Of a stretch of DNA of 46,429 nt, positions 1 to 46,429 are shown piece by piece. The position numbers and the translations under genes are program-made. The stretch lies in IMG/VR virus record IMGVR_UViG_3300036889_000007, positions 1 through 46,429 of that record; one strand, given 5' to 3'. Under the pieces are notes generated by a model. It did not search any database. It saw nothing but the letters and a program-made list of their open reading frames with translations, and was not told the DNA's origin. Each line of letters starts with the position of its first letter. Positions within the stretch are counted from its first letter, which is position 1. This stretch comes from a virus.

Positions 1-127
1 GCGTAAAGTTTCCAGAATAGGTAGTAGTTCCTTCCATGTCCAGCACGATCGTGTCGCCAGGGGACGAGTTGGTAAGGGCAGTCTGGAAGTCGGTCGCATT
101 GTGCGGTGTCCAAGTCGTGCCTCCCGC
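1..127. repeat. Terminal direct repeat, left copy
   Basis: The 127 bases are identical to 46303-46429. The beta-helix frame reads through the joint when the copies are merged, so this is a circular or terminally redundant molecule of about 46,302 bp. A length of 127 equals a widely used maximal assembler k-mer, so it may reflect assembly overlap rather than a biological terminal repeat. Confidence 0.97.
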
Positions 128-241
128 CGGCGGGTTCCACGTCGTGTCGATGAACAAACTGGGCGGAGTAGGATACGGCATTTGAGCCACGGCAGCGCTA
201 ACTGCCAACATCAGAGCAAAGATTGTGAGTAGTCTTTTCAT
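1..241 (-). CDS. Exported beta-helix protein, N-terminal part (gene crosses the contig joint)
   Basis: This is the 5' part of a gene that starts with ATG at 241, runs down to base 1 and continues at 46302 to its stop at 44750. The merged product is 597 residues. AGGA lies just upstream of the start (GGCAGGAATATG on the minus strand). The first 20 residues form a clear Sec signal peptide: MKR, a hydrophobic core, then AAVAQ with an A-V-A cleavage site. The start is 23 bases after the stop of the upstream spike gene, so the two are co-transcribed. The in-frame ATG at 46348 would remove the signal peptide and is an artefact of cutting the circle. Confidence 0.9.
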   Translation of the reverse strand, partial: MKRLLTIFALMLAVSAAVAQMPYPTPPSLFIDTTWNPPAGGTTWTPHNATDFQTALTNSSPGDTIVLDMEGTTTYSGNFT

Positions 242-264: not shown

Positions 265-2982
265 TCAGAACCGAGTCGGCTGCGTGTTGCCCTGGTACTG
301 CACGTTGTAGATGATGGTAAAACTCGTAGCCGTCATGCTAGTTGTTGGCGTCACCTGCAAGAGAGTCGGATTGGCCGCAGTCAGTGCCCACGAGTCGGTA
401 AGGGTAGAACCTGACGTGCAGGTCGTCGCTTCGTTTAGCCCTGCCCCGGTTGTCGGACTCACTACGAAAACGCTAGCCGAGTTCTCGCCAGCGAAGTTCA
501 GCGTACCACTCAGAGCACATTGGTTTGTTCCACCGCTGGCTTGGATCGTGTACTCTACCTGACCGCCAGTGGTTTGCAGCGTAGCAAGAGGGATGCTTAG
601 AATCGTGCTCGCAGCCGCGCTAGTAAGGTTCTTCGTTCCCCCGATGATCTGTTTGGTAGTTCCAGCAACTTGAACATTACCACCCGCTGTTGTGTTAGCT
701 GCGGGAGCAGTTGCACCCAGAGATGCGTCGGCAAGCGTGAAGCTGAACGTGGTCGTCGTATTGTTAGAGATGCAGGGGGCAGAAGCACAGCCTAGATAAT
801 AACTGCCCGTGTCTCCAGTCTTGGTGGCGTAGATATTGCGGCCCGTAGTCCCTACTGGCCCAACGGGAATTACACTCAGGGGCACGGTAGCAGCTACACC
901 GCAAGTCTGAACCGCCGACTTTGCGCTTGGGAGTGATTCACCAAAAGCGGTTATGAATGTTACCACCCAACTGTGGGTGCCTGCTGTGCAGCTTCCGCCC
1001 GACGTGGGAGTTCCTGCGGTCAGCGCTGCCGGGGTAGTGTCATTCGCATAGTTCGTCGGGCCGGTAGAGGTTACACCGCCGTACAGGGTATTGGTTGCTA
1101 GCCCCGTGGAGTTGTGGGTTGCGTAGGACGACGTGCCGCCACTGGTTGTGTTCCCTGTCGTCACCTGCTCGTAAAAGCTGGTACTGTATTTAACGTACCC
1201 GCTCTTTGGAACAATCCACAAATCAGGAGAGCCGCCAGTTCCTGACCCAATCGTAGTTATCCCAGGAGACGCTCCAGTATAGTTGCTCTGCAAAGACAAG
1301 CCAGCGTAATTGCTCCCGTAATTGTTGACAATCCCATCGGATGAGGTGAAGATCGTCATCTTCATCGAGTTCGTCCCGTTCTTTAGCTCTAATTCATAAT
1401 CGCTTCCTTGGTACAGGTTGTCATTTCCAATCGCCAACCCTACTGTGTTCGGGAAGAGGTTCCCACCATCAGCCATGATCTGGGTATCAAGGCTCTGGTC
1501 GTAACTTGCGTTGAACGGTGTACAGTAGATGCCAGAACAACCCATGTTGCCGATAATGACGCTCCCCGGAACCGCCGTGCCATCGGTACAGAAGGCATAG
1601 GCCGTACCTAATGCATCCCAAAAACTGTTATTCACAAACGTATTCCATCGGGCGTATGACATGCTGATGCCGCAGCCGCCAGTGTAGCCAGTCAGCTCGA
1701 TTACATTACCCGAAACTTGGTTGCCGGAATCCTCCATTCCGGTTCCGCCGTCAAGTTCAATAGCATTAGCTACTCCCCCGCCGCTCTGGAATGAGATGAT
1801 GTTGTTAAGGAACTGCACGCCGTTTCCGGTGCGCTGCAACTTCATGGCGGTTCTAATCTTCTCGAAGGCGTTGTCACGAATTACTGTTCCATAGCCCTGG
1901 AAGCGATCATTGATAGACCCATTTAACGGCGTCGGTAGATCGTTTGTTCCCCCTAGAATAATGGCATCGTTGCAGGCTGTAGTTGTAATGTGAGTCCCGA
2001 GGAATGTGTTGTTGTGAATCTGCACGTCTGTCAAGGTAGTTTGCAAGAAAGGCTGACAATCGGTGCTGGTATCTTTGAGTGTCAGATGGTCAATTTCTAA
2101 TACACCGCCACCCTCTGAAACCATCTTCGGGCCACTGGCATATTGCAAATCCAATCCGCCCCCACCGATAATAGAGCCATGAGCATCAGTCATGGTGAAG
2201 GTATTAACTTGGCCCGTAATCCTATAAGGAGGGGAACTCCATGGAGTAGTTGCGTTCTTCGGAAAGACTACCTGCCCAGAGATTAGGCAAAATTTTCCGG
2301 GGGGGAACTGGATTGTCCCGCCTCCGTTGGTATAAAGAACACCTAGCAGGGTATTGAATGCGCTGGTGTCGTCCGTCGAATCGTCGCACGCAAAGCCATT
2401 GGCCATCGCGTTGTAGACCGCTCCGCCATTGTCCCATATTGGAGCAGTAATCGGCTCGGCAGTTGAAACCGTTGTACCACTGTCGGTGATAGAAGAAGCT
2501 ACGGCGTTAGTGCCGTCTGACTTCATCACAACGTTAGCTCCAGCAGAGTTGGTGATTCCTCCACCACTCCCACCCCCACCGCCCCCGCTCCTTGCGGAGG
2601 CTGCTGAAGGTGTGATAGTAGCTGTAGCTGAACCAGACATGGTTGCTGAGGCCCGCATACGTAGCCCTGTAAATCCAGCAGCATTGACCTGCCAAGTACC
2701 ATTAGCTGTAGCAGAGGTGACAGCGGTTGTGGAGGCTAAGGGGGTGACGTTTACAGCTACCCAAGTAGCTCCACCATCGCCTGTAGCCTCAAATGAGATG
2801 GTTCCTGTCCATGTACCTGAGAGTGTTAAAGTGGCACCACCCTTATCTTCGGGAAGATTGACTATAAGACAACTAGCTTCTAGTACACAGGTAGTGCCAC
2901 TGGTTGTGATTACGTTACTCGCTGCCCATGAGGGCATGGCCCACAGAGCAATGAATAGCAGTACCGTTGATAGACGTTTCAT
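265..2982 (-). CDS. Exported beta-helix tailspike-like protein (905 aa)
   Basis: The start at 2982 is chosen because a strong GGAGG (in taggagggataATG) precedes it and a Sec signal peptide follows (MKRLSTVLLFIALW, ending P-S-W-A-A). An upstream in-frame ATG at 3009 would bury the signal. After a Thr/Ser-rich region and a polyglycine linker near residue 140, the GFACDDSTDDTSAFN and GGGTIQFPPGKF motifs mark the entry of a pectate-lyase-3-type beta-helix, as in many phage tailspikes. The C-terminal third is beta-rich with paired Cys. It starts 8 bases after the ATP-grasp stop. Base composition is richer in GC than the internal virion genes (52% over 1681-1800 against 40% over 5701-5820). Role: host surface binding or depolymerisation. 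Confidence 0.85.
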   Translation of the reverse strand: MKRLSTVLLFIALWAMPSWAASNVITTSGTTCVLEASCLIVNLPEDKGGATLTLSGTWTGTISFEATGDGGATWVAVNVTPLASTTAVTSATANGTWQVNAAGFTGLRMRASATMSGSATATITPSAASARSGGGGGGSGGGITNSAGANVVMKSDGTNAVASSITDSGTTVSTAEPITAPIWDNGGAVYNAMANGFACDDSTDDTSAFNTLLGVLYTNGGGTIQFPPGKFCLISGQVVFPKNATTPWSSPPYRITGQVNTFTMTDAHGSIIGGGGLDLQYASGPKMVSEGGGVLEIDHLTLKDTSTDCQPFLQTTLTDVQIHNNTFLGTHITTTACNDAIILGGTNDLPTPLNGSINDRFQGYGTVIRDNAFEKIRTAMKLQRTGNGVQFLNNIISFQSGGGVANAIELDGGTGMEDSGNQVSGNVIELTGYTGGCGISMSYARWNTFVNNSFWDALGTAYAFCTDGTAVPGSVIIGNMGCSGIYCTPFNASYDQSLDTQIMADGGNLFPNTVGLAIGNDNLYQGSDYELELKNGTNSMKMTIFTSSDGIVNNYGSNYAGLSLQSNYTGASPGITTIGSGTGGSPDLWIVPKSGYVKYSTSFYEQVTTGNTTSGGTSSYATHNSTGLATNTLYGGVTSTGPTNYANDTTPAALTAGTPTSGGSCTAGTHSWVVTFITAFGESLPSAKSAVQTCGVAATVPLSVIPVGPVGTTGRNIYATKTGDTGSYYLGCASAPCISNNTTTTFSFTLADASLGATAPAANTTAGGNVQVAGTTKQIIGGTKNLTSAAASTILSIPLATLQTTGGQVEYTIQASGGTNQCALSGTLNFAGENSASVFVVSPTTGAGLNEATTCTSGSTLTDSWALTAANPTLLQVTPTTSMTATSFTIIYNVQYQGNTQPTRF

Positions 2983-2990
2983 TATCCCTC

Positions 2991-4244
2991 CTAAAAATCT
3001 ATGCCCCATGATGCCAAGTCCTTTAAGTTCTCTTTAAGATCATCCATGCTACCTGTAGTAACTGTTAGTTGTGTGCCCTTGATTTGCTTACCAATCTCAC
3101 TAACCTCCTCCATACAATCTTCAAGACTCGATCCGTAAGCCACAACAGCACCTACCTCTTCACCAGAGTTCTGTGGAAGTATCCATGTCTCATTACCGAA
3201 CTGTGCAGCGTAGCGTAACTTGACTTGGTTACGATACTCTGCTGGGAACTCTATGAGCATAGGCTTCTCAGGAGACCATTGGCTTTTGATGAGAACTTCA
3301 CAGCCATACTTAGCTTTGTAGATAGGCTCAACAAGCATCCCGTTAGCCCCTTCCCACATAATCTCAGGTAGGTTGGTGATTAGGTCTAGCTCTAGCTCAG
3401 ACACAGGGGAACCAAACCTACAGCATGGATCAGCTAGCCAGAGACCACCCTTACCTACCCTAGACTCCAGAGCAAACAAGTTACGATACTGATAGCTCTC
3501 TAATGTAGGTGATAGCTTCTCATAGATGTCAACTAGGGTTGGGGGCATAGCAGCCCAAGGCTTGACTGCACCCACATAGCCCATATCTTTCTGCTCCACA
3601 CCTAGCATAGCCATTGCTGGATACTTACCATCTATACTATAAGTATCTATAGCAATATCTAACGTGTCTGGTAAGTTATCTTCCACTACAAAATCACGTT
3701 GTTCAGCTATGGGGCCAAACTCAGCCTCCATAAAGTCTAGCCGATTCTTAGCTAGGTCATAACCTTCAACTGAGAATGTCTCAGTGTCTCCACGAGTCTT
3801 ATCAATCTTAATCCAGAGCTTAGTGTTGCCACGGCTCTTGATGTACTTCCTGAGTGCTGACATTCCTGTAACAACTACATAGGGAGCTTGCGGTATACTC
3901 AGCCCAGCAAAGTGCTCCTTAGCATCAGTACGGTAGCACTCTAGCTCATCCGCATTACGCGACCCAAATACCCTTTTACCCTTCGACGCCAGATATTCTT
4001 GCAACGTCCCTTGATGAAGATCAGTAAACACAAACAGGTCAACATCATCTATAATGTCCCATATATCATCTACACGTTCAAAGTCAGGGAAGCCCTCACC
4101 TAGCTCAGTCTTGTAGGATGAAGGGAAGTCAGCTACCCAAGGGGAGGTATAGTAGACCTTACCAAATCGTTTGCTGAGTGATCGCGCTACCTCAGCAAAG
4201 ATGCCGTTATCTACTACGCAGACCGTATTGGTGGTAAAGTCCAT
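2991..4244 (-). CDS. ATP-grasp family protein, PurD-like (417 aa)
   Basis: The fold pattern is that of ATP-grasp ligases: an N-terminal Rossmann-like pre-domain (VCVVDNGIFAEVARSLSKRF, GKVYYTSPW), a hinge, then the ATP-grasp core with WIKIDKTRGDTETF for the nucleotide lid and acidic metal ligands further on. Resemblance is closest to phosphoribosylamine-glycine ligase, but purine synthesis is not implied because no other pathway gene is present. These enzymes join a carboxylate to an amine using ATP. The start at 4244 overlaps the upstream stop as TAATG, giving translational coupling to the HELAE-motif gene. The position between ejection proteins and spikes in the late operon suggests modification of a virion or envelope component. 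Substrate unknown. Confidence 0.75.
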   Translation of the reverse strand: MDFTTNTVCVVDNGIFAEVARSLSKRFGKVYYTSPWVADFPSSYKTELGEGFPDFERVDDIWDIIDDVDLFVFTDLHQGTLQEYLASKGKRVFGSRNADELECYRTDAKEHFAGLSIPQAPYVVVTGMSALRKYIKSRGNTKLWIKIDKTRGDTETFSVEGYDLAKNRLDFMEAEFGPIAEQRDFVVEDNLPDTLDIAIDTYSIDGKYPAMAMLGVEQKDMGYVGAVKPWAAMPPTLVDIYEKLSPTLESYQYRNLFALESRVGKGGLWLADPCCRFGSPVSELELDLITNLPEIMWEGANGMLVEPIYKAKYGCEVLIKSQWSPEKPMLIEFPAEYRNQVKLRYAAQFGNETWILPQNSGEEVGAVVAYGSSLEDCMEEVSEIGKQIKGTQLTVTTGSMDDLKENLKDLASWGIDF

Positions 4245-4618
4245 TATAAGTTCTCCACAGTAGCATCGTACTGTTTCCAATCTACATCTAACTCAAGTGC
4301 AAGTAATCGCTCAACACAAGTAGAGAACTGATGCTCACGATAGTAGGGGGCTGCTAGACTATCCCCAGGCTCACTAACATCATTATCCCCTCTAAGAGAT
4401 TCATACTTAATATCAAAGTCATCTACCTGTTCTTGCTGTATCCCTCGGTGTCTACATATAAGACATTCAGCTAATTCGTGAAACGCAACTAGCATCTCAT
4501 ATCGCCAGTCACCCATCTTTGATACTGAGATGGTCAAGTTATCTCCATCCCATTGCCAATCTCCACACGTAGAATAACGTTGCTGGTTGTTAGGTATGAC
4601 CTCAATCGTTACTTTCAT
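4244..4618 (-). CDS. Conserved phage protein with HELAE motif, possible metalloenzyme (124 aa)
   Basis: The central helix reads VAFHELAECLICRHRGI. The HExxE arrangement resembles metal-binding helices of zinc proteases, and similar helices followed by D-F-D occur in hypothetical proteins of many tailed phages. No second metal ligand can be assigned with certainty and no peptidase family is recognised. It overlaps the end of the large internal virion gene by four bases (ATGA) and its stop overlaps the ATP-grasp start, so the three are one translational unit. It could act with the ATP-grasp protein. It is also one of few candidates for a cell-wall-active enzyme, but this is only a guess. Confidence 0.6.
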   Translation of the reverse strand: MKVTIEVIPNNQQRYSTCGDWQWDGDNLTISVSKMGDWRYEMLVAFHELAECLICRHRGIQQEQVDDFDIKYESLRGDNDVSEPGDSLAAPYYREHQFSTCVERLLALELDVDWKQYDATVENL

Positions 4619-20644: not shown

Positions 20645-21034
20645 TTAATTGCTCGTTACCCTTCCTAGATAAGCAATAGCTGCACAAAGTACATTAGGGT
20701 TATCCTTAGAATGACCTAACAACAAGTTGCAAGAATGGCAAAGAATCCCACGCACTTTATTAGTGTTGTGATCATGGTCAACATTCCAGTCTCTATTACC
20801 TAGATTCTCACCACAACAGATTGCACACTTGTTTCCCTGGGATAACAAAAGAGCATCGTACTCTTCCGTAGTAATTCCATATAGCCGTTTGCGTACAATG
20901 CCCTTCTGATAGGACTTAAACTCCTCAGGGTGTGCTGCTCGCCACCTATAGGTAGCGGCCCTAACCCTATCTGGGTGTGCTTGGCGATACTTCTGAACAG
21001 CAATCCTGTTCCGCTCTTTGGTGTCACTCATCAT
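20645..21034 (-). CDS. Endonuclease VII-like HNH nuclease (129 aa)
   Basis: The core YGITTEEYDALLLSQGNKC and CAICCGE, then NVDHDHNTNKVRG, ILCHSC and NLLLGHSKDN, is the recombination endonuclease VII signature: a zinc site (C70, C73, C99, C102) around the DHDH catalytic stretch (residues 86-89). T4 gp49 of this family resolves branched DNA before packaging; smaller members often behave as free-standing homing or packaging-linked HNH nucleases. The N-terminal 50 residues are basic and helical. The start overlaps the upstream stop as TAATG and the portal starts two bases after its end, so it is seamless in the operon. Confidence 0.88.
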   Translation of the reverse strand: MMSDTKERNRIAVQKYRQAHPDRVRAATYRWRAAHPEEFKSYQKGIVRKRLYGITTEEYDALLLSQGNKCAICCGENLGNRDWNVDHDHNTNKVRGILCHSCNLLLGHSKDNPNVLCAAIAYLGRVTSN

Positions 21035-33099: not shown

Positions 33100-34187
33100 T
33101 GGCCTATGCTGATCTTTACTTTGGGGCATCCCGCACAGGTAAGACTACACAAATTGGTGTAGCTGCTAAAAGGGCATTAAGGGTATACGGCAAGCCTTCA
33201 CGCTTGGTTACTGCTGATTTGGGCACCCTTGATTGCATACAGTCCCAGATTGATGACGGGACTATCCAAGTGTGGAACCTACGCAACAACGCTCATGTCA
33301 TGCAGGCCATTGACAAAGCCTGTCAAGGCTACTGGCCTGTAGATATGAATGACCCTAACAGTAAGCTCATGGCCCCTACCATCATTCGCTATATAGGCAA
33401 GTGTCCCAAGTGTGGCGATGAAATGAGTAGTGGGCAACCATTACAGCAACGCCCATGCACTAAGTGTAAAACTATCACTAACTTTGCTGTGCAACGCGCC
33501 AACAACCCAGACAATGACTTAACTAAAGTCTCCCTCTATGCCTTTGAAGGTATCACCAGTTACTGTGATGCCATCATGGAGGAGATGTCGTCAGAAGGTT
33601 CAGTTGCTTTGGGTGATAAGGAAGCGCCACTTAGTTATATGAGTGGTGAAACCAAGTTTAGTGGTAATAGTGGTGGAGACTTTGGGCTAACCCAGAAAAC
33701 AATCCCTGGCTGGGTTGCCAAGTCAACAGGAATCCCACATGTTGCACAACTAATTTGGACAGGACTTGAGGGCCGTGGGTTTGTAGAGGGAACAGATAAG
33801 CGGATTGATGATAAACAGGGGAGAACGAAGATAGTTGGAATACCTATGTACGGTGTTCTCATACCTGGAGGTGGGGCAGCAGCTAAGGTTGTGGGAAAGA
33901 TACCTCAATGGTTCCGTCACATGCTGCACTTTGAAACTGTAGAGAAGGCAACTAAGTCTACAGACGGTGGCCCCGACACTATGAGCATTGAGTACCGTAT
34001 GTACATTAAGCCTCACGCTGATCCAATGGGTATCGTGTTCGTTTGCGGGCTAAGGGTTCGCGGAGAGTTCCAGGAAGCATTCAATAAGTGGCCTGCTTGG
34101 ATGGAGCCAGATGTAGGGAAGCTCTATGACAAGATTGACGAGTTGCAACAACGAGCGGTGGCGCAAGTAAAGGAGGCTACGAAGTGA
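33099..34187 (+). CDS. P-loop ATPase with zinc ribbon, Sak4/RecA-like candidate (362 aa)
   Basis: Walker A is FGASRTGKTT (G9-K15) right at the N-terminus, as in Sak4-type and other RecA-fold phage ATPases. A Cys4 zinc ribbon is inserted at C102, C105, C120 and C123 (KCPKCGDE ... PCTKCK). A later segment (SYCDAIMEEMSSEG) may carry Walker B-like functions. Phages often pair such an ATPase with a Cas4-like nuclease and a ssDNA-binding protein for annealing or recombination, which fits the neighbours here. Assignment to Sak4 is tentative because downstream motifs are weak. Confidence 0.7.
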   Translation: MAYADLYFGASRTGKTTQIGVAAKRALRVYGKPSRLVTADLGTLDCIQSQIDDGTIQVWNLRNNAHVMQAIDKACQGYWPVDMNDPNSKLMAPTIIRYIGKCPKCGDEMSSGQPLQQRPCTKCKTITNFAVQRANNPDNDLTKVSLYAFEGITSYCDAIMEEMSSEGSVALGDKEAPLSYMSGETKFSGNSGGDFGLTQKTIPGWVAKSTGIPHVAQLIWTGLEGRGFVEGTDKRIDDKQGRTKIVGIPMYGVLIPGGGAAAKVVGKIPQWFRHMLHFETVEKATKSTDGGPDTMSIEYRMYIKPHADPMGIVFVCGLRVRGEFQEAFNKWPAWMEPDVGKLYDKIDELQQRAVAQVKEATK

Positions 34188-34657
34188 GCTATCAACGGAT
34201 CACCAAAATTACAAACTTTAGACCCTACCCAGACTTTAGTGGAGTCCATAATGTTCCTGAGTATGTTCGCTTTTGGGCTAAGGTTGATAAGTTTGTTGGT
34301 GGTGATTGTTGGGTATGGCTTGCTAAGAAAACGAAAGGGCCAGGACGCGGTATAGGTTATGGTAGTTTTCAGACCGATAGTGGAAGGCATGTATCTGCTC
34401 ATCGGTGGGCTTACATGAATTTGGTAGGCCCAATCCCTGAGGGGCTAGTGATAGACCATCTATGTAATAATCGTAGCTGTGTCAATCCCAGCCACTTTAA
34501 GGTTACAACAAACAAGGAGAACACTAGACGCTCTCTTGTTAAAACCCACTGCATATACGGACACCCACTACATCAAGGGGCACTACAAAATGTATGTGCA
34601 ACCTGTAAACGTGACTGGGCACGCCGGAATAGGCAGCAAATAAGGAGACTAACTTGA
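34184..34657 (+). CDS. HNH homing-type endonuclease (157 aa)
   Basis: GTG start overlaps the ATPase TGA (GTGA), with AAGGAGG before it. The core LVIDHLCNNRSCVNPSHFKVTTNKEN is an HNH_3-type nuclease: D91-H92, central Asn and H104. The N-terminal FWAKVDKF, CWVW ... GYGSF strand set is the usual companion module. A C-terminal Cys pair (HCIYGHPL ... CATCKRDW) could bind zinc. Free-standing genes of this kind are often homing endonucleases that spread between phages. It is embedded without disturbing the operon: its stop overlaps the next TTG. Confidence 0.85.
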   Translation: MSYQRITKITNFRPYPDFSGVHNVPEYVRFWAKVDKFVGGDCWVWLAKKTKGPGRGIGYGSFQTDSGRHVSAHRWAYMNLVGPIPEGLVIDHLCNNRSCVNPSHFKVTTNKENTRRSLVKTHCIYGHPLHQGALQNVCATCKRDWARRNRQQIRRLT

Positions 34658-37109: not shown

Positions 37110-40100
37110 ATGTCATTCCAACGTATGCCAGTAGACTACTGCCTAGACCGCTCTCTACCTGAGATGGAGAAGTGGATGGCTGATCTAGGCTACACACCTG
37201 ATATGCCTCTAGCAGTAGACATAGAGACCCCTGAGACTGACAAGATCAATGAGGAGGATAGTGATGATCCTGAAAAAACGAGCTATACAATTATTCGTTG
37301 TGGTTTCAGCTTTAGACATGGGACTGCTGCAAGTTATCCTTGGGTCGAACCCTTCATTACATTCACGCGCAATCTGCTCTGCGCTGCTCATACTGTCATC
37401 CTTCATAATGGTGGCTTTGATAGGCCGCGACTTGAACGAGCGGGATGTCAAATAACAGGCAGAGTCTATGACACCATGTGGTGTCTTAACTACGATACCC
37501 AAGTAAAGCTCTCAGATGGTTCCTACAAGAAAATTGGTGAGGTTGTAGAGAACAAGCTAGATGTGGAGCTTCTTACATACGAGCGTGGTTGTATTGTACC
37601 TACAAGGATAGTTGCCTATCATGCAAATGCTGTGCTAGGGCAGCGTTGGGTCAAGATTCATGCACAAGGTACTCGGTTTCCCATATTTTGTACACCCGAC
37701 CATAAGATATATACGATGTCTGGGTGGGTAGAGGCAAAGGATATTGTAGTTGGGGATCAGGTTCCGTTACCTCATTATGGGTCAGAGTGGCTGATTCATG
37801 GAACTATCCTGGGGGATGCTTGGGTATCCCCTAACGGAGATTTACGGCTTCTTCATAGCACCATCCAACGAGATTGGATCAATGCTAAAGCACGCCACAT
37901 GCACGCTAATGTTTACGAGAGTAAAGCCCCAACTGGTAAGGGAACAAACCCTAATCTATATGCAAGCATTAGTGTGCCGTGTCAGTGGCGCTCTCTTTTC
38001 TACCCCGATGGTAAGAAGGTATTTATCCCACCCCCACACATTGCCTCTATTGCTGTATGGTACGGTGACAATGGTAACTGGCACCAGAACAATGACAACA
38101 ACTTAGGTGCTCCACGCTTCTGTATAGCAGGTTTCTCAGCCACGAATAAGGCTGCTATACGAGATTGGCTGGCACAGGAGTTTGATGGGGCGCGGCTACA
38201 ACAAAAGGATACGATTGTAGCTATCAATACTAAAAGGGGGCGAATAAAGTTCTTTGAAGCTATAGCTCCTTGGATGCACCCAAGCATGGAAAGGAAGCTG
38301 CCTAAGTGTTTTCGAGGGTACTATAATGGATGGCTTGAGAGGGACTATGCACAATGGGCACCTGTAAAGAGCGTAAGTGAATACCTACCAAGAACTAGAG
38401 AGAGACAGATGGTGAGGTATTGTGTTTCTGTTGCAAATGAGTCACAGTCCTTCTTTACTGAAGGTGGGCTTGTACACAATTGCTTTCATTTTCTACAAAG
38501 CGACTTACCCAAATCCTTGGAGTTCATTGCACCCTTTTATACAGACTTGGCTCCCTGGAAACATCTTAGTCAAGCAGAACCTGCTCTATACAATGCAACT
38601 GACAATGATGCCACTATACGATGCTATTATGCTATGCGCGACTGGCTGATCCGGCAGGGCCGCTGGGAACGCTTCACGCGCCACTGTAGCGACACGGCTA
38701 CGATCTTGGGGGAAATGTCCACCGCTGGGGTTCTCATTGACGTGGAGGCCCGCAGCACCCTCCAAAATGGCCTTCACGCTGAGATTACAGGAGTGTGCCC
38801 TGGAGTTGCAGAGGGAATTGAGCATAATACGCTAGCAAAACCTTGCATGGCGTGTCAGAACATAGCGAGACCCGATTTCATAGCGCTCAATACCTCAATC
38901 CAAGCTGCGATCCCCCGTGAGCTGCGGCCGATCAAAGAACTCAAAACTGAACGAACGCTAAAGGAGCTACCCGAGGACGAACGATCTGATTGGGAACCAA
39001 CCAATGTCAAGTGTGAGTGCAAGCGTCTACGAAAGTCTACTGGACGTTGCCTGCTATGCGATGGATCGGGGGTTGTTACTCACTATAGGAAACGACTACC
39101 TTTTAATTGGAACTCCACCGACCAGTGCCAAGACCTTGCACGTCATTATGGATTCACCATCCCTAAGAAACGGGGTGAAGATAGAGAAGCCCTCGAAGCT
39201 AAGACACTAAGAAAGTTCGGTAAGCGTAAGCCAGTATTCCTTGACATCTGGAATGCTCGTAAGCGCCATAAGTTAATTTCTACCTATGATTGGGTTTTAG
39301 ACAGTGAGGGTAGGGTACACACTAAGTTTGGCTTCTGGCCTAGTACATGGAGGAAGGCGAGTCGTCAGCCAAACTTGATGACCATTCCAGCCCGTAATGA
39401 GCTTGCTGCTGCCTTTAAGAGAACTATTATAGCAGCTCCTGGAAATGTACTTATAAATGCTGACTCATCTGCTATTGAAGCAGTAATTATGGGCTACACT
39501 ATAAATAGTCCTAGGATGGTTGCTCTTGCTAAGGCTGGTATCCACGACTGGTTTATGAGCCACGTAAGAGCAAATAAGGAAGGTGGAGTAGGGATTGATG
39601 CTGGTTTACCATTTGAGCTGTTGCGTAAGGCATGTAAAGAAGCTAAAGCATACGATGCTAGTCTACCGTCAGCTAGGCAGCTTCGAGATGCTATGAAGCG
39701 TACTATACATGGTACAGATTATGGGCTTACACCTTTTGGAATGGCTGATGAATACCCAGATGAGTTTCCATCTGTCAAGATTGCTACAGAATATCAGGAG
39801 ATGCTATTTCAGTTACTTCCTGAACTAAAGATAGGGATACGTAATATACGTGAGCGAGCGGATCGTCAGACCTTCCTTGACAACCATTACCAGTACCGAC
39901 ATTACTTCTATGCAGTCACGAAGTGGAATAGTAACTATCAGAAATGGGACTTAGGTACAGATGCTAAACGCTGCATAGCTTTTGGGCCACAGAGTGATGC
40001 TTCAGCTATTCAAACAGAGGACTTACTAACACTTGCAGCAGACCCTTTAATTCGTCCTATGCTTAGGCTTATCGTTCACGATTCCCACGTTCTTGAATGT

Positions 40101-40256
40101 CCTATAGATATGGTAGACTATGTCTGTGGGGGGTTGCATAGCACAATGTCTCGCCCACGTCCTGAGCTTGGTGGACTAGAGATAGGAGTAGAAATAAAAT
40201 ATGGTATAAACCTACAAGATACTCAATTATGGGTGCCGAAGCCTAGCGGGAACTAG
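37110..40256 (+). CDS. polA: Family A DNA polymerase with 3'-5' exonuclease, intein-containing (1048 aa precursor, 715 aa spliced)
   Basis: Exonuclease motifs: LAVDIET (D37, E39), HNGGFD (N100, D104) and YNATD (Y494, D498). Polymerase motif A is NADSSAIEA (D785), motif B is RDAMKRTIHGTDYG (R859, K863, Y871) and motif C is VHDSHV (H990, D991). His867 occupies the place of E. coli Phe762 and T7 Tyr526, and Ser992 replaces the usual Glu of HDE. A four-to-six-Cys cluster (C579, C582, C635, C637, C647, C650) may form a zinc ribbon between the domains. A 333-residue intein (125-457) lies between motifs Exo II and Exo III. The segment 38641-38760 has 65% GC against 39% for 39421-39540, which suggests a mosaic history. 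Confidence 0.93.
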   Translation: MSFQRMPVDYCLDRSLPEMEKWMADLGYTPDMPLAVDIETPETDKINEEDSDDPEKTSYTIIRCGFSFRHGTAASYPWVEPFITFTRNLLCAAHTVILHNGGFDRPRLERAGCQITGRVYDTMWCLNYDTQVKLSDGSYKKIGEVVENKLDVELLTYERGCIVPTRIVAYHANAVLGQRWVKIHAQGTRFPIFCTPDHKIYTMSGWVEAKDIVVGDQVPLPHYGSEWLIHGTILGDAWVSPNGDLRLLHSTIQRDWINAKARHMHANVYESKAPTGKGTNPNLYASISVPCQWRSLFYPDGKKVFIPPPHIASIAVWYGDNGNWHQNNDNNLGAPRFCIAGFSATNKAAIRDWLAQEFDGARLQQKDTIVAINTKRGRIKFFEAIAPWMHPSMERKLPKCFRGYYNGWLERDYAQWAPVKSVSEYLPRTRERQMVRYCVSVANESQSFFTEGGLVHNCFHFLQSDLPKSLEFIAPFYTDLAPWKHLSQAEPALYNATDNDATIRCYYAMRDWLIRQGRWERFTRHCSDTATILGEMSTAGVLIDVEARSTLQNGLHAEITGVCPGVAEGIEHNTLAKPCMACQNIARPDFIALNTSIQAAIPRELRPIKELKTERTLKELPEDERSDWEPTNVKCECKRLRKSTGRCLLCDGSGVVTHYRKRLPFNWNSTDQCQDLARHYGFTIPKKRGEDREALEAKTLRKFGKRKPVFLDIWNARKRHKLISTYDWVLDSEGRVHTKFGFWPSTWRKASRQPNLMTIPARNELAAAFKRTIIAAPGNVLINADSSAIEAVIMGYTINSPRMVALAKAGIHDWFMSHVRANKEGGVGIDAGLPFELLRKACKEAKAYDASLPSARQLRDAMKRTIHGTDYGLTPFGMADEYPDEFPSVKIATEYQEMLFQLLPELKIGIRNIRERADRQTFLDNHYQYRHYFYAVTKWNSNYQKWDLGTDAKRCIAFGPQSDASAIQTEDLLTLAADPLIRPMLRLIVHDSHVLECPIDMVDYVCGGLHSTMSRPRPELGGLEIGVEIKYGINLQDTQLWVPKPSGN
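37482..38480 (+). mobile_element. Intein with LAGLIDADG homing endonuclease in polA (333 aa)
   Basis: Splice junctions are clear: N-extein ...DTMW, intein starting C125-LNYDTQVKLSDG (block A) and ending GLVHN457, C-extein starting C458-FHFLQ. Block B is FCTPDHKIYT with the TxxH residues (T195, H198), and block F/G is YCVSVANESQSFF ... GGLVHNC. The two LAGLIDADG helices are LIHGTILGDAW (D236) and SIAVWYGDNGNW (D320), both with the catalytic Asp, so the homing endonuclease may be active. Removal restores a continuous exonuclease domain. Confidence 0.95.
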
Positions 40257-40510: not shown

Positions 40511-40843
40511 TTAACGGACAGCCCCTGGCAGGGTTGCTGGGGGCTGTTGCTGTATGAGCTTAATTACTATAGGCGTAGCAACTACAGCGAACTGTCCTAA
40601 CGTCCTAACAACCACCATAGTCCTTTGACGTTTAGTAAGTGGTGGAGGATTGGCTATCAACTCAGCAAGCCGATTCTGCTCTGCTAATAGAATGTTATGC
40701 TCCGCGAGTGTGACCTGCAACCGATCCATCGAAGCAGCAAGGCAAGCGATGTCACAGGCAGGCAAGGGTGGGGTTAGGGTTAAGGTTGCCTCTTGAGCCA
40801 ATGCCATAGCCGTGAGCAAAACGACTGCGATAAGTATTCTCAT
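40511..40843 (-). CDS. Exported coiled-coil protein, last late gene (110 aa)
   Basis: A Sec signal peptide (MRILIAVVLLTAMALAQ, cleavage after A-L-A) leads a mature protein with a Cys pair (PACDIACLAASM) and a helix with heptads (LQVTLAEHNILLAEQNRLAEL). A second hydrophobic stretch (VRTLGQFAVVATPIVIKLI) follows, then a Pro-rich end. It abuts the start of the preceding gene. Length and topology could fit a spanin subunit or an envelope protein; no lipobox is present. Confidence 0.65.
   Translation of the reverse strand: MRILIAVVLLTAMALAQEATLTLTPPLPACDIACLAASMDRLQVTLAEHNILLAEQNRLAELIANPPPLTKRQRTMVVVRTLGQFAVVATPIVIKLIQQQPPATLPGAVR
40518..40547. terminator. Hairpin at the convergent end of both arms
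   Basis: ACAGCCCC (40518-40525) pairs with GGGGCTGT (40540-40547) across a 14-base loop. It lies 10 bases after the stop of the last plus-strand gene and within the last codons of the last minus-strand gene. A U tract is lacking on either strand, so termination may be imperfect. Confidence 0.45.
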
Positions 40844-41209
40844 TTACCTACCTCTAGGCCAAAGAGTATATGTCAAAGCAACCCCACTGCCAACAGATGC
40901 AATCCTAGGTATCACCAACGCTAGCTTAGGATGTCCATGCTTAGAAAGCAACACAGATGCCCCCAGCTCTACCACCTTACCCCCCATTACCCATGCTGTA
41001 ATACCAGCACAGGTCTGTGTAGGAGCAGTCCGCTCAACCCAATGTGAATGCTCACAGGAGTTTACTGAGTCCGCTATACCAGTAGCAAAGTTTACTGACT
41101 GCCACGTAACCTGCTGGCGTGTCCAGAACTCCTGAGACAACGCCAGAGGAGACATCAATACGATAACCACAACCAGCTTACTTACCTTGGCACATATACG
41201 TGATTGCAT
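40844..41209 (-). CDS. Exported small protein with Cys pair (121 aa)
   Basis: The ATG at 41209 is preferred to an in-frame GTG at 41221 because GGGAG precedes it by six bases. A signal peptide with a basic start (MQSRICAKVSKLVVVIVLMSPLALSQ) is followed by WQSVNFATGIADSVNSCEHSHW and TCAGITAWVMGG, suggesting a disulphide, and two weakly hydrophobic helices near the end. It overlaps the fibre gene by 32 bases. Resembles small exported or membrane proteins with a DxxxS ... C pattern, but no family can be named. Confidence 0.6.
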   Translation of the reverse strand: MQSRICAKVSKLVVVIVLMSPLALSQEFWTRQQVTWQSVNFATGIADSVNSCEHSHWVERTAPTQTCAGITAWVMGGKVVELGASVLLSKHGHPKLALVIPRIASVGSGVALTYTLWPRGR

Positions 41210-44200
41210 AGGTACTCCCACTTGTTAGTCCGATTCCATTATTGTCCCAGTTAAGGGTGATAGCATTCAGTGCCCGACCAGTTATGATCGCTGTAGCCCT
41301 ACTCTGCCAAACACCAGTAGTATCATAGGCTAAAGTAAAGACACATACAGGAAGATTAGTACCTAGATTTGCAGATAACTGTAAAGTTTCATCACCTAGA
41401 TTACCAATCCCTGAACCACCAGGAGTTAGAACCATTACCCCCCACAGGTCTGTACTACCAGTCTCAAGCATACATGTTCCGGTAGACCCAATTCCCCCAC
41501 CACCACCAGTAGGTATACAGGTTGTATTACCTGTCTGGCTATACTTCATTGGGGTAGTGTTAGAAGTTATGTTCAAAGCTGCTGTAGAGTAAACTCCTCC
41601 CAAATCCATACCATACTTGGCTGTTCTATTCTGAGAGCGGAAGTCTGCCTCGGTTACTGTATGGATAGGATCACCCTGGCTATAAGGAACAAAGAAACCT
41701 ACTCTAAATGAGTTCCCCGCAAATGGATTTACCAGATAAGCAGAATCGCACATTGAGGGGCTACCACCATTACCACAGTCAGCTAGGAAAGCTGTAGAGA
41801 TTTGACTGGTAGAATAAAAGGTAGTAGGAGCATCTGTTCCTGTGAAGTTAAATACACCAGACTCAACACCAGTTAGTATTACAAACGGTATCCCAACTCC
41901 TGTTGTACCTACAGCAGCCTCAACTCCAAATGCAGCTCCTGCTGTAGCTGCTATACCAGCATGATTCAAGAATGCATATCCATCAATACCTTCAATGAAG
42001 CACGATCCTCCTCCTGCACCGCAACCACCATCATCTGCTATCTGGGTAAAGAGTCCAGTCATAATAGAGTTAGGATCACTGCTTTCCTTCCTCGATGTAA
42101 AGACGTGGCCCCAGTTGTGGCCAGCATAATTGCTAACCTTCTGCCAAAGATTGGCTGCACCTGCTGCTGTGTTTGGACTAACAAGCCCACCTTGAAGAGA
42201 GAGAGCCTGAGCATTACCAGTCCCTCCTGTATAGTTAGCATTAACTGGGGTAGCATACACGCCACCTCCAACAGTCTCTGACCCAGTTGCTATTATAGAT
42301 ACTACGTTTATATTCTTGGGATTGTCAAGCACCCAGAAAAGACTCGCTCCTATATTTCCAAGTTCTACGGTTGCAGTCTCATTGAGTACAATGTCACCAG
42401 CAGCAACAGGTATTAACCCTATTGGGCCTTGCTTTTTGGCAGTCAGAGGTGTAAGGCCACTGACTGTTATTGTAGGTGTAGTGGTTACATTGCTAGCACC
42501 AGGAATAAAGCTCACCTTTGTACCAATCTGGGTTTGTGATACCAGTGCTGGAACAAGCGTAATCGTGATTGCATCTGCTGTCCCACCAACACTAGAAGCA
42601 ACTGTTGGCTTTGCTATTGCAGCAGCATCTAGATTGCTTGCTCCTACAGCACCACAATTCCCAAAGCTAATTGCCCCTATTGCCGATCCAGATATAGCAG
42701 CTATAGCCGCTTGACCAAGACAGCCTGGGGTATTCGGTGAAGAACCAAGATCAGTAACATCACCAGCTATGGTGGTACTTGCTCCAACATAGTGATTGAG
42801 TGTTATCCCACTAGCGTCTGCTGTCACTATTGGATAGCCAAGTGTAACTAGGCAAGCGTTACCTGTCGTGCCTGGAGCACACCCAGCAACTGTATTTGTA
42901 GGGGCTTCAGCATAAAGCTGGATCGTGGTATCACTAGTGGTAGCAGTAAGTGCTTGACCACCAACTATCTTGGTTAGCTTATATACTGTAGTGCCACTAC
43001 TGGCATTAGGAATTGAGGGGTCTATTATTTGAGTAGGCCCAGAAGCTGTAAAGCTGCTAGCTCCTATGTGACCACTCATATCAGTTGTGCAGTTAGTGTC
43101 AACCTTACTATCTCCTCCTGCATTACCAAACATGCACGTATTCAAATTCAATGCTCCAGCACTATGCGTAACAGTTCCCGTCCCAGGAAAGCTGCTACAA
43201 GATGGTTGTGGTACTGGCTGCACACGAACTAACGTAACACTTCCGGCTAGGCCAGAAGCTACAGCCTGACCAATTACTTCATTGCCACACAGAGGGATTA
43301 TATTTGATCCTGTGTCTGTACCATAACCACTAATAGATGAGGTTGTTACCCAGTCACCAGCCACAACCGCATGAGTTGCATCAAACTGTAGATAGGTTAC
43401 ATTTCCTGTAAGTGCCACTTGTGGAAAGTTAGGATAGCTACAACTGTTTACACAAATCCCAACTACATCACCAGCGTCGTTGGCAGCGCAAGCCGTAATC
43501 TTTTGTGTAGTTGTTTGACACGCCGTATATGTTGCTACCGGAGGGGTGGTTGAGTCACTTGGGTATTGAGTCTCCCAAAAAACATTAGCCTCATTCAATC
43601 CCCACGTAGCACCAGAGGTAAGCTGTGCTGGCTCAACTATAGCACTACCTGCTAACTTAGCAAGCATTGTAGTGTTTGTTCCTGACAGTAGTGCGTTCCA
43701 TCCTGTACTACCAGAGCTTGTGCTACAGGTTCCATCGCTGTAGAGATAACCAGTACAACCTCCACCAGCCCATAAACCTACAACATTGCCATAGGACATA
43801 GTTAGGAAGTTAAAAGGGATTGTATTAGATGCATTATAGCTCGTTCCCCAGGCTGTACCACTGCTGTTTGCTATGCCCGTTGCAGGATAGATCATGCTGC
43901 TAGGACATGGCCCTACATCTTTGAGCAGCTTACCAGTTATGCCATCGTACACAGCACAGTCACCATCGTTAGACGTGCTGGGGCCAGTGACATTCCCACT
44001 ACCATTACCGCTCCCAGTCTCTTGCAGTATCTCTGTTAGCTTATCCAAGCTCCGCTCAAAGGTTTTCATTGGGATGGGCATGTTGTCATAGAACGATATG
44101 TTCTGTGTCACTGGTGTAACACGAGTCAACACAAGTGTCTGAGTACATGGATACAGGCTGCCTAACGTAACACTACCACCATTGGCATAGTTCATGTTGA

Positions 44201-44408
44201 CTGAGATAACCGTATAAGCAGTGGGTGGTAGCAACGTGCCATTCAACGTAACTGTCAGTGCAGTAGGGTCACTGATAGGAAAGCTAAAAGGAAATGGCCC
44301 ATACCCACCTGTGCAAGCAAAGGTAACTGTGTATGGTAGATTGCTAACAGTAGCACATGCTGTGCCAGTTAAGCACAACAACAATATCCACAACATGATT
44401 CGCTTCAT
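41178..44408 (-). CDS. Exported tail fibre with T7 gp17-like N-terminal anchor (1076 aa)
   Basis: The first 20 residues form a Sec signal (MKR, then IMLWILLLCLTGTA, A-C-A cleavage site). Residues about 23-115 match the layout of the T7 gp17 virion-binding domain: YTVTF, FPFSFPISDPTALTVTLNGT, YTVISV, GSVTLGSLYP, TLVLTRVTPVTQNISFYD and MKTFERSLDKLTEILQE. The rest is Gly/Ser/Thr-rich beta structure with many Cys. The start overlaps the upstream stop (ATGA). It should be the receptor-binding fibre, yet the signal peptide predicts export before assembly, which is hard to reconcile with cytoplasmic tail attachment. Confidence 0.85.
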   Translation of the reverse strand: MKRIMLWILLLCLTGTACATVSNLPYTVTFACTGGYGPFPFSFPISDPTALTVTLNGTLLPPTAYTVISVNMNYANGGSVTLGSLYPCTQTLVLTRVTPVTQNISFYDNMPIPMKTFERSLDKLTEILQETGSGNGSGNVTGPSTSNDGDCAVYDGITGKLLKDVGPCPSSMIYPATGIANSSGTAWGTSYNASNTIPFNFLTMSYGNVVGLWAGGGCTGYLYSDGTCSTSSGSTGWNALLSGTNTTMLAKLAGSAIVEPAQLTSGATWGLNEANVFWETQYPSDSTTPPVATYTACQTTTQKITACAANDAGDVVGICVNSCSYPNFPQVALTGNVTYLQFDATHAVVAGDWVTTSSISGYGTDTGSNIIPLCGNEVIGQAVASGLAGSVTLVRVQPVPQPSCSSFPGTGTVTHSAGALNLNTCMFGNAGGDSKVDTNCTTDMSGHIGASSFTASGPTQIIDPSIPNASSGTTVYKLTKIVGGQALTATTSDTTIQLYAEAPTNTVAGCAPGTTGNACLVTLGYPIVTADASGITLNHYVGASTTIAGDVTDLGSSPNTPGCLGQAAIAAISGSAIGAISFGNCGAVGASNLDAAAIAKPTVASSVGGTADAITITLVPALVSQTQIGTKVSFIPGASNVTTTPTITVSGLTPLTAKKQGPIGLIPVAAGDIVLNETATVELGNIGASLFWVLDNPKNINVVSIIATGSETVGGGVYATPVNANYTGGTGNAQALSLQGGLVSPNTAAGAANLWQKVSNYAGHNWGHVFTSRKESSDPNSIMTGLFTQIADDGGCGAGGGSCFIEGIDGYAFLNHAGIAATAGAAFGVEAAVGTTGVGIPFVILTGVESGVFNFTGTDAPTTFYSTSQISTAFLADCGNGGSPSMCDSAYLVNPFAGNSFRVGFFVPYSQGDPIHTVTEADFRSQNRTAKYGMDLGGVYSTAALNITSNTTPMKYSQTGNTTCIPTGGGGGIGSTGTCMLETGSTDLWGVMVLTPGGSGIGNLGDETLQLSANLGTNLPVCVFTLAYDTTGVWQSRATAIITGRALNAITLNWDNNGIGLTSGSTYAITYMCQGK

Positions 44409-44710
44409 ACCTTTGGTTCCTCTCGATCACTAGCCTTAGCTGCGGCAATCTGGGTTTTCAAGTCTGTCACCTGTGCTAACTGCTCTGCTTCACTATCTTT
44501 CCTTGTAATCGTATCTTGTAGATGGGTAATGATTCCATCTGTTTGTGATCTAGTTATCTTAGTTGTTGCATCAACACCCTCTAGCTTTACAGACAGATGC
44601 TCAAGTTTATTAAGCGTCAACTTTAAGAACGCAATGATGACTGCTACTAGAGGTAGCATTACCATTCCAACATAAGGGGCAACGAACTCCCAAAACGAAG
44701 TTGTTGTCAT
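44405..44710 (-). CDS. Membrane-anchored coiled-coil protein, spanin-like candidate (101 aa)
   Basis: One transmembrane helix (YVGMVMLPLVAVIIAFLKL) near the N-terminus is followed by a long charged helix (LNKLEHLSVKLEGVDATTKIT ... AEQLAQVTDLKTQIAAAKA). This resembles inner-membrane spanins of the Rz type or a small virion-envelope protein. The start at 44710 is preferred because it overlaps the stop of a 10-codon minicistron with a strong ribosome site. A start at 44716 would lack one. Confidence 0.6.
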   Translation of the reverse strand: MTTTSFWEFVAPYVGMVMLPLVAVIIAFLKLTLNKLEHLSVKLEGVDATTKITRSQTDGIITHLQDTITRKDSEAEQLAQVTDLKTQIAAAKASDREEPKV

Positions 44711-44739
44711 TCGCATTCACCCAATCTACGTTCAGCCAT
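44707..44739 (-). CDS. 10-residue minicistron coupled to the membrane protein gene
   Basis: AGGAGGAATAAG precedes ATG at 44739; the peptide is MAERRLGECE, and its TGA overlaps the downstream ATG as ATGA. It supplies the only strong ribosome binding site for the next gene. The upstream spike stop TAG overlaps the AGGAGG. Probably a translational coupling device. Confidence 0.5.
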   Translation of the reverse strand: MAERRLGECE

Positions 44740-44749
44740 CTTATTCCTC

Positions 44750-46429
44750 CTATTGTACCTGAAAACCACTAAATGTATATCCGCTCATTGTCAGACTCCC
44801 CACAAACGAGCTGGGCGTGCCCCCGTTCCACCCCGCCTGCACTCCATCCGACGTGTAAGCCGACCAGTTGGGCGTTACCAACACATTATTAGAATCGAAC
44901 GTCCAAGCTGTTGGCACGTCGTTCTGCGGGGGCCATGAATATATCGTGTCGCCGCTAGGTGCAAACATCACGTTCCCGAGAAAGCGGGGTGCCAGTGGCG
45001 ACGGGTTAGGCATGTAGATATTAAGCCCGGTAAGGCCTGTCATACCACATTGGCCACTGACCTGCCGACCAATTACGTTATCAAGAATCCAGATGTTGCC
45101 GCCCGTGTTTGGTATAGAGGAACATCCCGGGGCTGTCCAATCATAGTTGTCTGGATTAGAGCCATCCAGCATCAGGCCGGTGTTGTGCTGAACGATCCAG
45201 TCGGTCAGCCCATTTAGAACCATGGGGCTGAGTTCCCCACCCCATATCAGCATCATTACGTGGTGCGTGTCATCCGGATTTGGGTTAAGCAAGAAGAGAT
45301 TATTGTGTATCCAGACCCGCTTCGATTCTCCGGGCGTAGTACAGTTGGGGTAGCCAGAGGCCGGGTTACAAGCGTAATCCTCGGCTAGAGTGTTGAAGCC
45401 GCGATCACCGTGCTTGATGATATTTCCAGTTACCTCGATGTCATCCACTACGGCGAGGTTCCCGCTTTGGGTAGTACGAATCTCGAACAGAAGCTGGGCA
45501 TATTGTCCAGAGGAGCCTAGCCAGTTATTCTCTAGCGTGTTGCCGGTAACGATGACCCGCCTCGCGCTCTTGAACTCCAAATTGTTCTTCTCCAGCCACT
45601 TGTAACCGGGAGAAGTCGTTGGAGGACACGGCACTCCATTAGGTTGTATGTAGCCAGGAGCCAGCGTAATAAGGCAGGCGTCCCATGCCAAAGGCTTGAA
45701 CATGTGATTATTGCGAATCTCAATGTCCGAAGCTACATAGGGATTGGTGTACCCACCAGAACCGCCGAACATCAAATCTTCGGTGGATGCTGACAGATAG
45801 TTATCAACAACCTTAATCGGCCCAGGAGTCCAGAACGATGCTATAGCTTGAGAGTCGCTGTTGCTTTGATGGATGTCGGAGATGTAACTGTCGATCACGG
45901 CGCAGTTGGTTATGTTGCACTGCACGCCTTCCCGCACGTCCTGGGTATCAGAGCCGTGTATGTAATCGCGGTCTACGGTGATCGAATCCGGCAGGCAGCC
46001 CGAGGTAAAACAACTCTCGCCTCCGTCCTCCTGTCCAATCAGAAAATAGGTATAAGGGTTCATTGGAGGATTTTGGGATGGGTTACCTCCCTGCGTAGAC
46101 GTGCTGGTAACCTCCAATCCAACTAGCCGCCAATGGTTTGATCCCTGTGCGGGCGCAATAGCGGGAAGACTGTTGGGACTAACCACCTTCGCCATGTAGG
46201 GTGCATAAGACGGATCAGTGCGCGTCCCCGGAGGCGGCAAGGAAGCCAACCCTGCACTCTCAATGTAAATCCAAAGGTTGCCCAGATTGGTCTTCGCTGG
46301 CAGCGTAAAGTTTCCAGAATAGGTAGTAGTTCCTTCCATGTCCAGCACGATCGTGTCGCCAGGGGACGAGTTGGTAAGGGCAGTCTGGAAGTCGGTCGCA
46401 TTGTGCGGTGTCCAAGTCGTGCCTCCCGC
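44750..46429 (-). CDS. Exported right-handed beta-helix protein, spike or depolymerase candidate (C-terminal part)
   Basis: Main part of the 597-residue protein that begins at 241 on the other side of the joint. Short N-rich rungs recur with a spacing typical of right-handed parallel beta-helices of the pectate-lyase-like type, for example IEIRNNHMF, VIVTGNTLENN, IEVTGNIIKHG and VWIHNNLFL. Such folds are used by phage tailspikes that cleave surface polysaccharide and by secreted bacterial lyases. Many Cys residues (e.g. CFTSGC, CNITNC, CNPASGYPNC) would suit disulphides in an oxidising compartment. It lies between the other spike and a membrane-anchored coiled-coil protein. No virion-anchoring domain is recognisable, so it may be a second spike or a truly secreted enzyme. 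Confidence 0.85.
   Translation of the reverse strand, partial: AGGTTWTPHNATDFQTALTNSSPGDTIVLDMEGTTTYSGNFTLPAKTNLGNLWIYIESAGLASLPPPGTRTDPSYAPYMAKVVSPNSLPAIAPAQGSNHWRLVGLEVTSTSTQGGNPSQNPPMNPYTYFLIGQEDGGESCFTSGCLPDSITVDRDYIHGSDTQDVREGVQCNITNCAVIDSYISDIHQSNSDSQAIASFWTPGPIKVVDNYLSASTEDLMFGGSGGYTNPYVASDIEIRNNHMFKPLAWDACLITLAPGYIQPNGVPCPPTTSPGYKWLEKNNLEFKSARRVIVTGNTLENNWLGSSGQYAQLLFEIRTTQSGNLAVVDDIEVTGNIIKHGDRGFNTLAEDYACNPASGYPNCTTPGESKRVWIHNNLFLLNPNPDDTHHVMMLIWGGELSPMVLNGLTDWIVQHNTGLMLDGSNPDNYDWTAPGCSSIPNTGGNIWILDNVIGRQVSGQCGMTGLTGLNIYMPNPSPLAPRFLGNVMFAPSGDTIYSWPPQNDVPTAWTFDSNNVLVTPNWSAYTSDGVQAGWNGGTPSSFVGSLTMSGYTFSGFQVQ
46303..46429. repeat. Terminal direct repeat, right copy
   Basis: Exact copy of bases 1-127. 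Both copies lie inside the coding sequence of the exported beta-helix protein, so the contig was opened inside a gene and not at a natural intergenic end. Confidence 0.97.

Follow-up and report, generated by a model that had tools for sequence, protein, structure and literature searches.

The virions of tailed phages are commonly assumed to be put together in the cytoplasm, and the T7 fibre gp17, whose N-terminal domain binds it to the virion (PDB 7boz), starts without a signal peptide. Virion proteins with signal peptides are found in the filamentous phages (pIII and pVIII), which are not tailed and are assembled in the membrane of the living cell. We analysed a fibre gene of the IMG/VR virus record IMGVR_UViG_3300036889_000007, taken over its full 46,429 nucleotides (hereafter the window). 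This open reading frame (ORF), at 41178-44408 on the minus strand, encodes a protein of 1076 residues whose anchor has the gp17 fold and likewise stands at the fibre N-terminus. Compared to gp17, the window fibre adds a predicted signal peptide and a conserved pair of cysteines.

The best sequence and fold matches to the window anchor are orf22 of LME-1 (9efk) and the Carin-1 spike (8ck1), both solved in tail complexes. In the deposited chains, the matching part starts as early as residue 2 or 6, which leaves no room for a signal peptide. The BcepC6B, Vibrio VP5-phiVC8 and Pelagibacter fibres have a homologous anchor (28-34% identity) and, unlike the window fibre, were devoid of both signal and anchor cysteines in 10 out of 10 cases scored. 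According to part of one report (PMC8101328), the tail fibre gp20 of the cultured phage VP2 binds the outer-membrane secretin EpsD, and the cloning primer printed there for gp20 begins like the VP5 anchor protein.

An exported protein with a tailspike fold, WceF of Pantoea stewartii, is described in an excerpt of PMC7949094; unlike the window fibre, it is a bacterial protein with a Tat signal. A passage of another paper (PMC6199706) cites absent signal peptides as support for a phage origin of diversity-generated receptor-binding-type proteins. In the accessible parts of the reports on JG068 (PMC3765740), UFJF_PfDIW6 (PMC8951688) and Circe (PMC13001222), phage signal sequences are tied to lysis proteins, and an extract on rumen phages (PMC5723332) mentions unnamed proteins with signal sequences. 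No case of an exported fibre appeared in the corresponding portions of the phiCbK paper (PMC3556154) and of a hypermutation survey (PMC8144416). Our searches of the open-access literature yielded no description of a tailed-phage fibre that is exported, and no paper on spikes added to tailless heads.

The anchor and its predicted signal peptide

A preliminary description of this DNA had given the ORF the limits and length stated above, which we find as well, and had placed a gp17-type anchor directly after a cleavable-looking signal. This placement was borne out by a profile match, a fold comparison and the conservation of the signal. Residues 20-133 matched PHROG 1640, 'tail protein', with an E value of 1e-9, and a profile of 27 relatives matched solved phage spikes, Dpo31/Dpo36 (28lx, 8ck1) at 5.4e-8 and LME-1 orf22 at 6e-4. 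An AlphaFold model of the anchor was obtained from 27 sequences, with a mean predicted local distance difference test score (pLDDT) of 75.6 (block means of 76 for residues 1-10 and 82-91 for residues 11-80, low past 80). Compared to the PDB, it gave Z scores of 10.3 for LME-1, 9.4 for Carin-1, 9.1 for HRP29 and 8.1 for T7 gp17 (7boz; root mean square deviation of 2.2 Å over 66 residues), gp17 being barely above the value of 8 below which a match may reflect a common arrangement, and LME-1 and Carin-1 being clearer. The top nine rows of this comparison were all phage tail, fibre or spike chains. The preliminary description had suggested the comparison with the gp17 N-terminal domain, and the fold did not turn out to be an unrelated one. 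Foldseek alone was weaker (best E value 1.1e-3; gp17 at rank 13, E value 0.09, probability 0.98). Profile search and structure comparison agree on a gp17-type virion anchor. It was the only one detected in the window, and it keeps the residues that are invariant across relatives. Pfam and PHROG gave nothing for the fibre body, residues 131-1076 (41181..44018, minus strand).

The signal peptide occupies codons 1-19 (44352..44408, minus strand) and reads MKRIMLWILLLCLTGTACA, with A-C-A ahead of a predicted cut after Ala19 and TVSN following it. The anchor domain, residues 20-130 (44019..44351), was delimited from PHROG 1640, PDB sequences and the fold, and would form the mature N-terminus if the predicted cut is real. 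Relatives were collected by a scan with the gp12-like tail protein, which gave 64 loci of related phages. Fifty of these were searched for anchors, the others being L004-L007 (100% identical to the window), L009, L010, L027, L034, L035, L037, L044, L051, L052 and L053, and further anchor scans brought the collection to 25 distinct anchors, with that of the window counted as L088. Anchors were found in 20 of the 50 related records searched, all 21 of them with a signal and two cysteines, and 19 of these 20 records had a single anchor. Record G033 has a pair of fibres (L098:150-2276 and L098:4947 on), both of which carry a signal peptide and an anchor.

Signals were called by a home-made and lenient rule: among 876 antisense ORFs, it accepts 91 if the start may be any within the first 60 codons. 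The weight therefore rests on the conservation of the signal. It was present at the same alignment position in the 25 distinct anchors (window's included), and the same rule, applied to conserved non-fibre genes (head, tail, portal, terminase, internal proteins and a 429-residue protein), gave 0 out of 161, which rules out a signal peptide arising by chance. The hallmarks of Sec export and signal peptidase I cleavage, namely a basic n-region, a hydrophobic core and A-x-A, are present in the window, and 23 of 23 distinct anchors pass the rule, all with K or R among the first six residues. At the cut site of these 23 anchors, the window's included, position -1 was Ala in 22 and Gly in one, and position -3 was Ala in 17. 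The predicted cut adjoins a conserved Thr-Val, and the rule puts it exactly there in 21 anchors. The first residue after it was Thr in 21, Ala in one and Gln in one. It was never Cys, which rules out a lipoprotein signal. The Thr at the predicted mature N-terminus corresponds to the residue that directly follows the start Met in relatives without a signal, and in 10 of 10 cultured relatives scored the ATG lies one codon ahead of this same Thr. Taken together, the sequences strongly support a predicted Sec export of the spike.

No membrane-like segment was found after the cut in any of 15 fibres, where no stretch of 19 residues exceeded a mean hydropathy of 1.9 (highest 1.77), and a decoy held in the membrane was ruled out on this ground. 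A C-terminal F, W or Y was present in 3 of these 15. The signal peptide sets the window anchor apart from the gp17-type and PHROG 1640 members outside this group, which have none, and we therefore regard it as a variant of that anchor. The variant is real and conserved, and remains within the podovirus fibre anchors without amounting to a novel type of system.

Cysteines and the spike body

The two cysteines of the window anchor, noted in the preliminary description, are found in FACTGG (Cys32) and LYPCTQT (Cys88), mature positions 13 and 69. The bridge proposed there between them is supported indirectly by their distribution. Exactly two cysteines were present in each of the 25 distinct signal-bearing anchors, and none in the 51 distinct signal-less ones (39 distant, obtained from 51 rows, 10 cultured, scored among 42 cultured records, and 2 close relatives); no mixed case was observed. 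YeP4, a cultured phage left unscored, had neither signal nor cysteines in the part examined. A tree built without the Cys columns fits one joint gain of signal and cysteines, with weak support (33/17), and a tree with cultured outgroups and the Cys columns gave two changes, one change being found in 32% of bootstraps.

Cysteine numbers over whole proteins gave evidence of another kind. Past the cut, the window fibre has 26 cysteines, of which the anchor holds 2 and the body 24. Parity was scored on 373 gene calls near anchors, reduced to 304 after removing copies and to 110 complete representatives. An even count was found for 21 of 24 signal-bearing proteins (p 1e-4), a set that holds doubtful signal calls (L028:9553, L104:9587 and L107:7509) and becomes 21 of 23 without L028, vs 22 of 60 signal-less ones, or 22 of 47 among those with at least two cysteines. 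Complete signal-bearing fibres were even in 14 of 16 cases (p 0.002), the odd ones being those of L094 and L107. Cysteine content near anchors was 1.89% in signal-bearing and 0.92% in signal-less proteins, and for fibres it was 1.92% (23 signal-bearing) compared to 0.13% (39 signal-less distant) and 0.68% (10 cultured), many of the sequences being partial, a comparison limited by the possibility that hosts differ between signal-bearing and signal-less groups. Such a pattern is to be expected of disulfide-bonded proteins, and is separate in kind from the signal rule; the presence of disulfides in the spike thus appears well supported.

Two close relatives, L096/L118 and L120/L129, have an anchor without signal and without either cysteine, as a short separate protein (358 and 357 residues). 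The gene that follows it starts with a signal peptide in L118 and in L129, and the spike body of L129 aligns to that of L091, whose fibre is fused (27.7% identity over 488 columns, E value 1e-16). We concluded that the signal belongs to the spike body. As judged from these sequences, the anchor carries a signal only when fused to a spike body, and the fused anchor then holds the Cys pair. One relative combines signal, anchor and a pectate-lyase-like domain, a classic spike build. Two observations go beyond the preliminary description: the signal follows the spike body and not the anchor, and neighbouring genes at the fibre end also bear signals.

The virus record and its fibre-end cassette

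The gene content of the record is that of a podovirus, with a terminase, a head-tail adaptor, a major head protein, two tail proteins and an internal virion protein. IMG/VR classes the record as linear; despite this, we read it as circularly closed because positions 1-127 are repeated exactly at 46303-46429 (a direct terminal repeat of 127 nucleotides) and another contig shows the identical sequence over the junction. The gp12-like tail protein, at 10529-13078 on the minus strand, is 100% identical in four other metagenome records (loci L004-L007), which indicates that the same virus recurs.

After the structural genes, the minus strand carries across the junction a fibre-end cassette made, in this order, of a 914-residue ORF, proteins of 597 and 103 residues, the 1076-residue fibre and two small proteins. 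A signal peptide was scored in five of the six, the exception being the 103-residue protein. The 914-residue ORF (265..3009) has its signal from an ATG at 2982 (MKRLSTVLLFIALWAMPSWA, followed by ASN) and contains 16 cysteines; by eye, its start after the cut looks like that of the upstream neighbour of L097. Five signal-bearing upstream neighbours of anchors (L089, L091, L094, L095 and L096) have in common a GTCxVSDVTSTQ-like start after the cut. The 597-residue protein spans the ends of the record, its N-terminal part (MKRLLTIFALMLAVSAAVAQ...) lying at 1..241, with the start ATG at 241, and its larger part at 44750..46429. The 103-residue protein (44405..44716) has one hydrophobic N-terminal segment, and its match to an Rz-like spanin was weak (E value 0.041) and is not relied on. 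Its stop overlaps the fibre start codon, an ATG at 44408, and a Shine-Dalgarno-like GAGAGGA (44418..44424) is found 9 nucleotides upstream of this ATG. The small proteins, each with a signal peptide and 2 cysteines past the cut, are one of 121 residues from an ATG at 41209 (40844..41221) and one of 110 residues (40511..40843; MRILIAVVLLTAMALAQ).

A 429-residue protein at 2991-4280 (minus strand), without match in Pfam or PHROG, recurs immediately ahead of the fibre cassette in several relatives (L091, L094, L097, L099, L116 and L129). Elsewhere, a family A DNA polymerase is encoded at 37110-40256 on the plus strand (Pfam E value 2e-20); an intein-like stretch was noticed in it by eye (CLNYDTQ...VHNC), with a weak LAGLIDADG match (E value 0.003). 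An endonuclease VII-like gene (20645-21034, minus strand, E value 2.5e-23) and an HNH endonuclease-like gene (34184-34657, plus strand, E value 5e-14) were also found.

Export, assembly and alternative explanations

An anchor domain needs access to the tail, and the puzzle that a signal peptide poses for assembly order, raised in the preliminary description, is a real one, common to a group of related phages. We consider it probable that the fibre is an exported, oxidised podovirus tail spike, which joins cytoplasm-built virions at lysis. With a little less assurance, we favour a two-compartment assembly, in which head and tail are built in the cytoplasm and disulfide-bonded, receptor-binding spikes in the periplasm, the two halves meeting only at or after lysis. 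The Sec pathway would carry the fibre over the inner membrane of a presumably diderm host, and signal peptidase I would cut after Ala19, leaving Thr1 of the anchor as the N-terminus. In an oxidising periplasm, the cysteines would pair, one pair being in the anchor, and the spike would fold. The head, portal and tail proteins, signal-less, would be assembled in the cytoplasm. Lysis would then mix the compartments, and the anchor would dock on the tail as the final assembly step. An anchor encoded by a gene of its own would stay cytoplasmic and Cys-free, only the spike body being exported. Late attachment of spikes is familiar from work on P22 and T4.

Several points weigh against this explanation. 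No anchor was found in 30 of the 50 related records; 29 of these are at most 22 kb long, but G011 has 34.9 kb, and in the parts scanned of G009, G011 and G022 a stricter scan found no anchor and no ORF of at least 150 residues with a signal. Of 20 loci in which an upstream ORF is clear, only 9 have a signal in the gene that directly precedes the anchor. By hmmscan, PHROG 1640 fell short of an E value of 0.01 in 5 of 9 anchor proteins of relatives, which were detected by A2 or genome search. Signal and Cys pair represent a joint change, made once or twice on the tree and then kept, rather than many independent events. The oxidising periplasm is an assumption, and a host search over 84,980 species genomes, made with exact 8-residue patterns of one anchor and of the gp12-like protein, returned no relative. 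Finally, docking would require spike and virion to meet after lysis, which dilutes both, and the presence of the spike in the virion is inferred.

As the chief alternative, these exported proteins would stay apart from the virion and act as secreted enzymes or decoys, stripping or covering the cell surface late in infection, against superinfection or to free progeny. The pectate-lyase-like domain of one relative would suit such a role, as would the several signal-bearing neighbours without detected anchor. We nevertheless regard this as unlikely: the invariant anchor residues are kept, the anchor is the sole one found in the window and in nearly all related records with a match, and with neither a membrane-like segment past the cut nor a Cys just after it, nothing obvious would hold these fibres on the cell.

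Two further possibilities concern the N-terminus itself. The hydrophobic segment could stay uncut, as a plug in the membrane or in the virion, since cleavage is a prediction. This seems very improbable to us, given that the A-x-A-like motif stands at a fixed column and that a cut there restores the N-terminus of the signal-less relatives. The signal could also be an artefact of gene-start choice, a later start giving an ordinary cytoplasmic fibre. Around the cut, 17 of the 23 distinct anchors do have an ATG or GTG somewhere from codon -4 to codon +14, and within the window signal there are an ATG at codon 5 and TTG at codons 6 and 9-11. There is, however, no further start from codon 11 to codon 55 in the window, the annotated ATG is preceded by a good Shine-Dalgarno and overlaps the stop codon of the gene before it, and the internal start codons lie at differing places among relatives. 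Such an artefact would also leave the conserved cut site and the paired cysteines unexplained, and we give it hardly any credence.

With a spike that is probably exported and oxidised, this group of related podoviruses departs from the rule of cytoplasmic, signal-less virion proteins. If true, it would reveal a way for tailed phages to make use of disulfide-stabilised spikes, and whether tail spikes attach at or after lysis would become directly testable. Annotation, in that case, may file such spikes as secreted host proteins.

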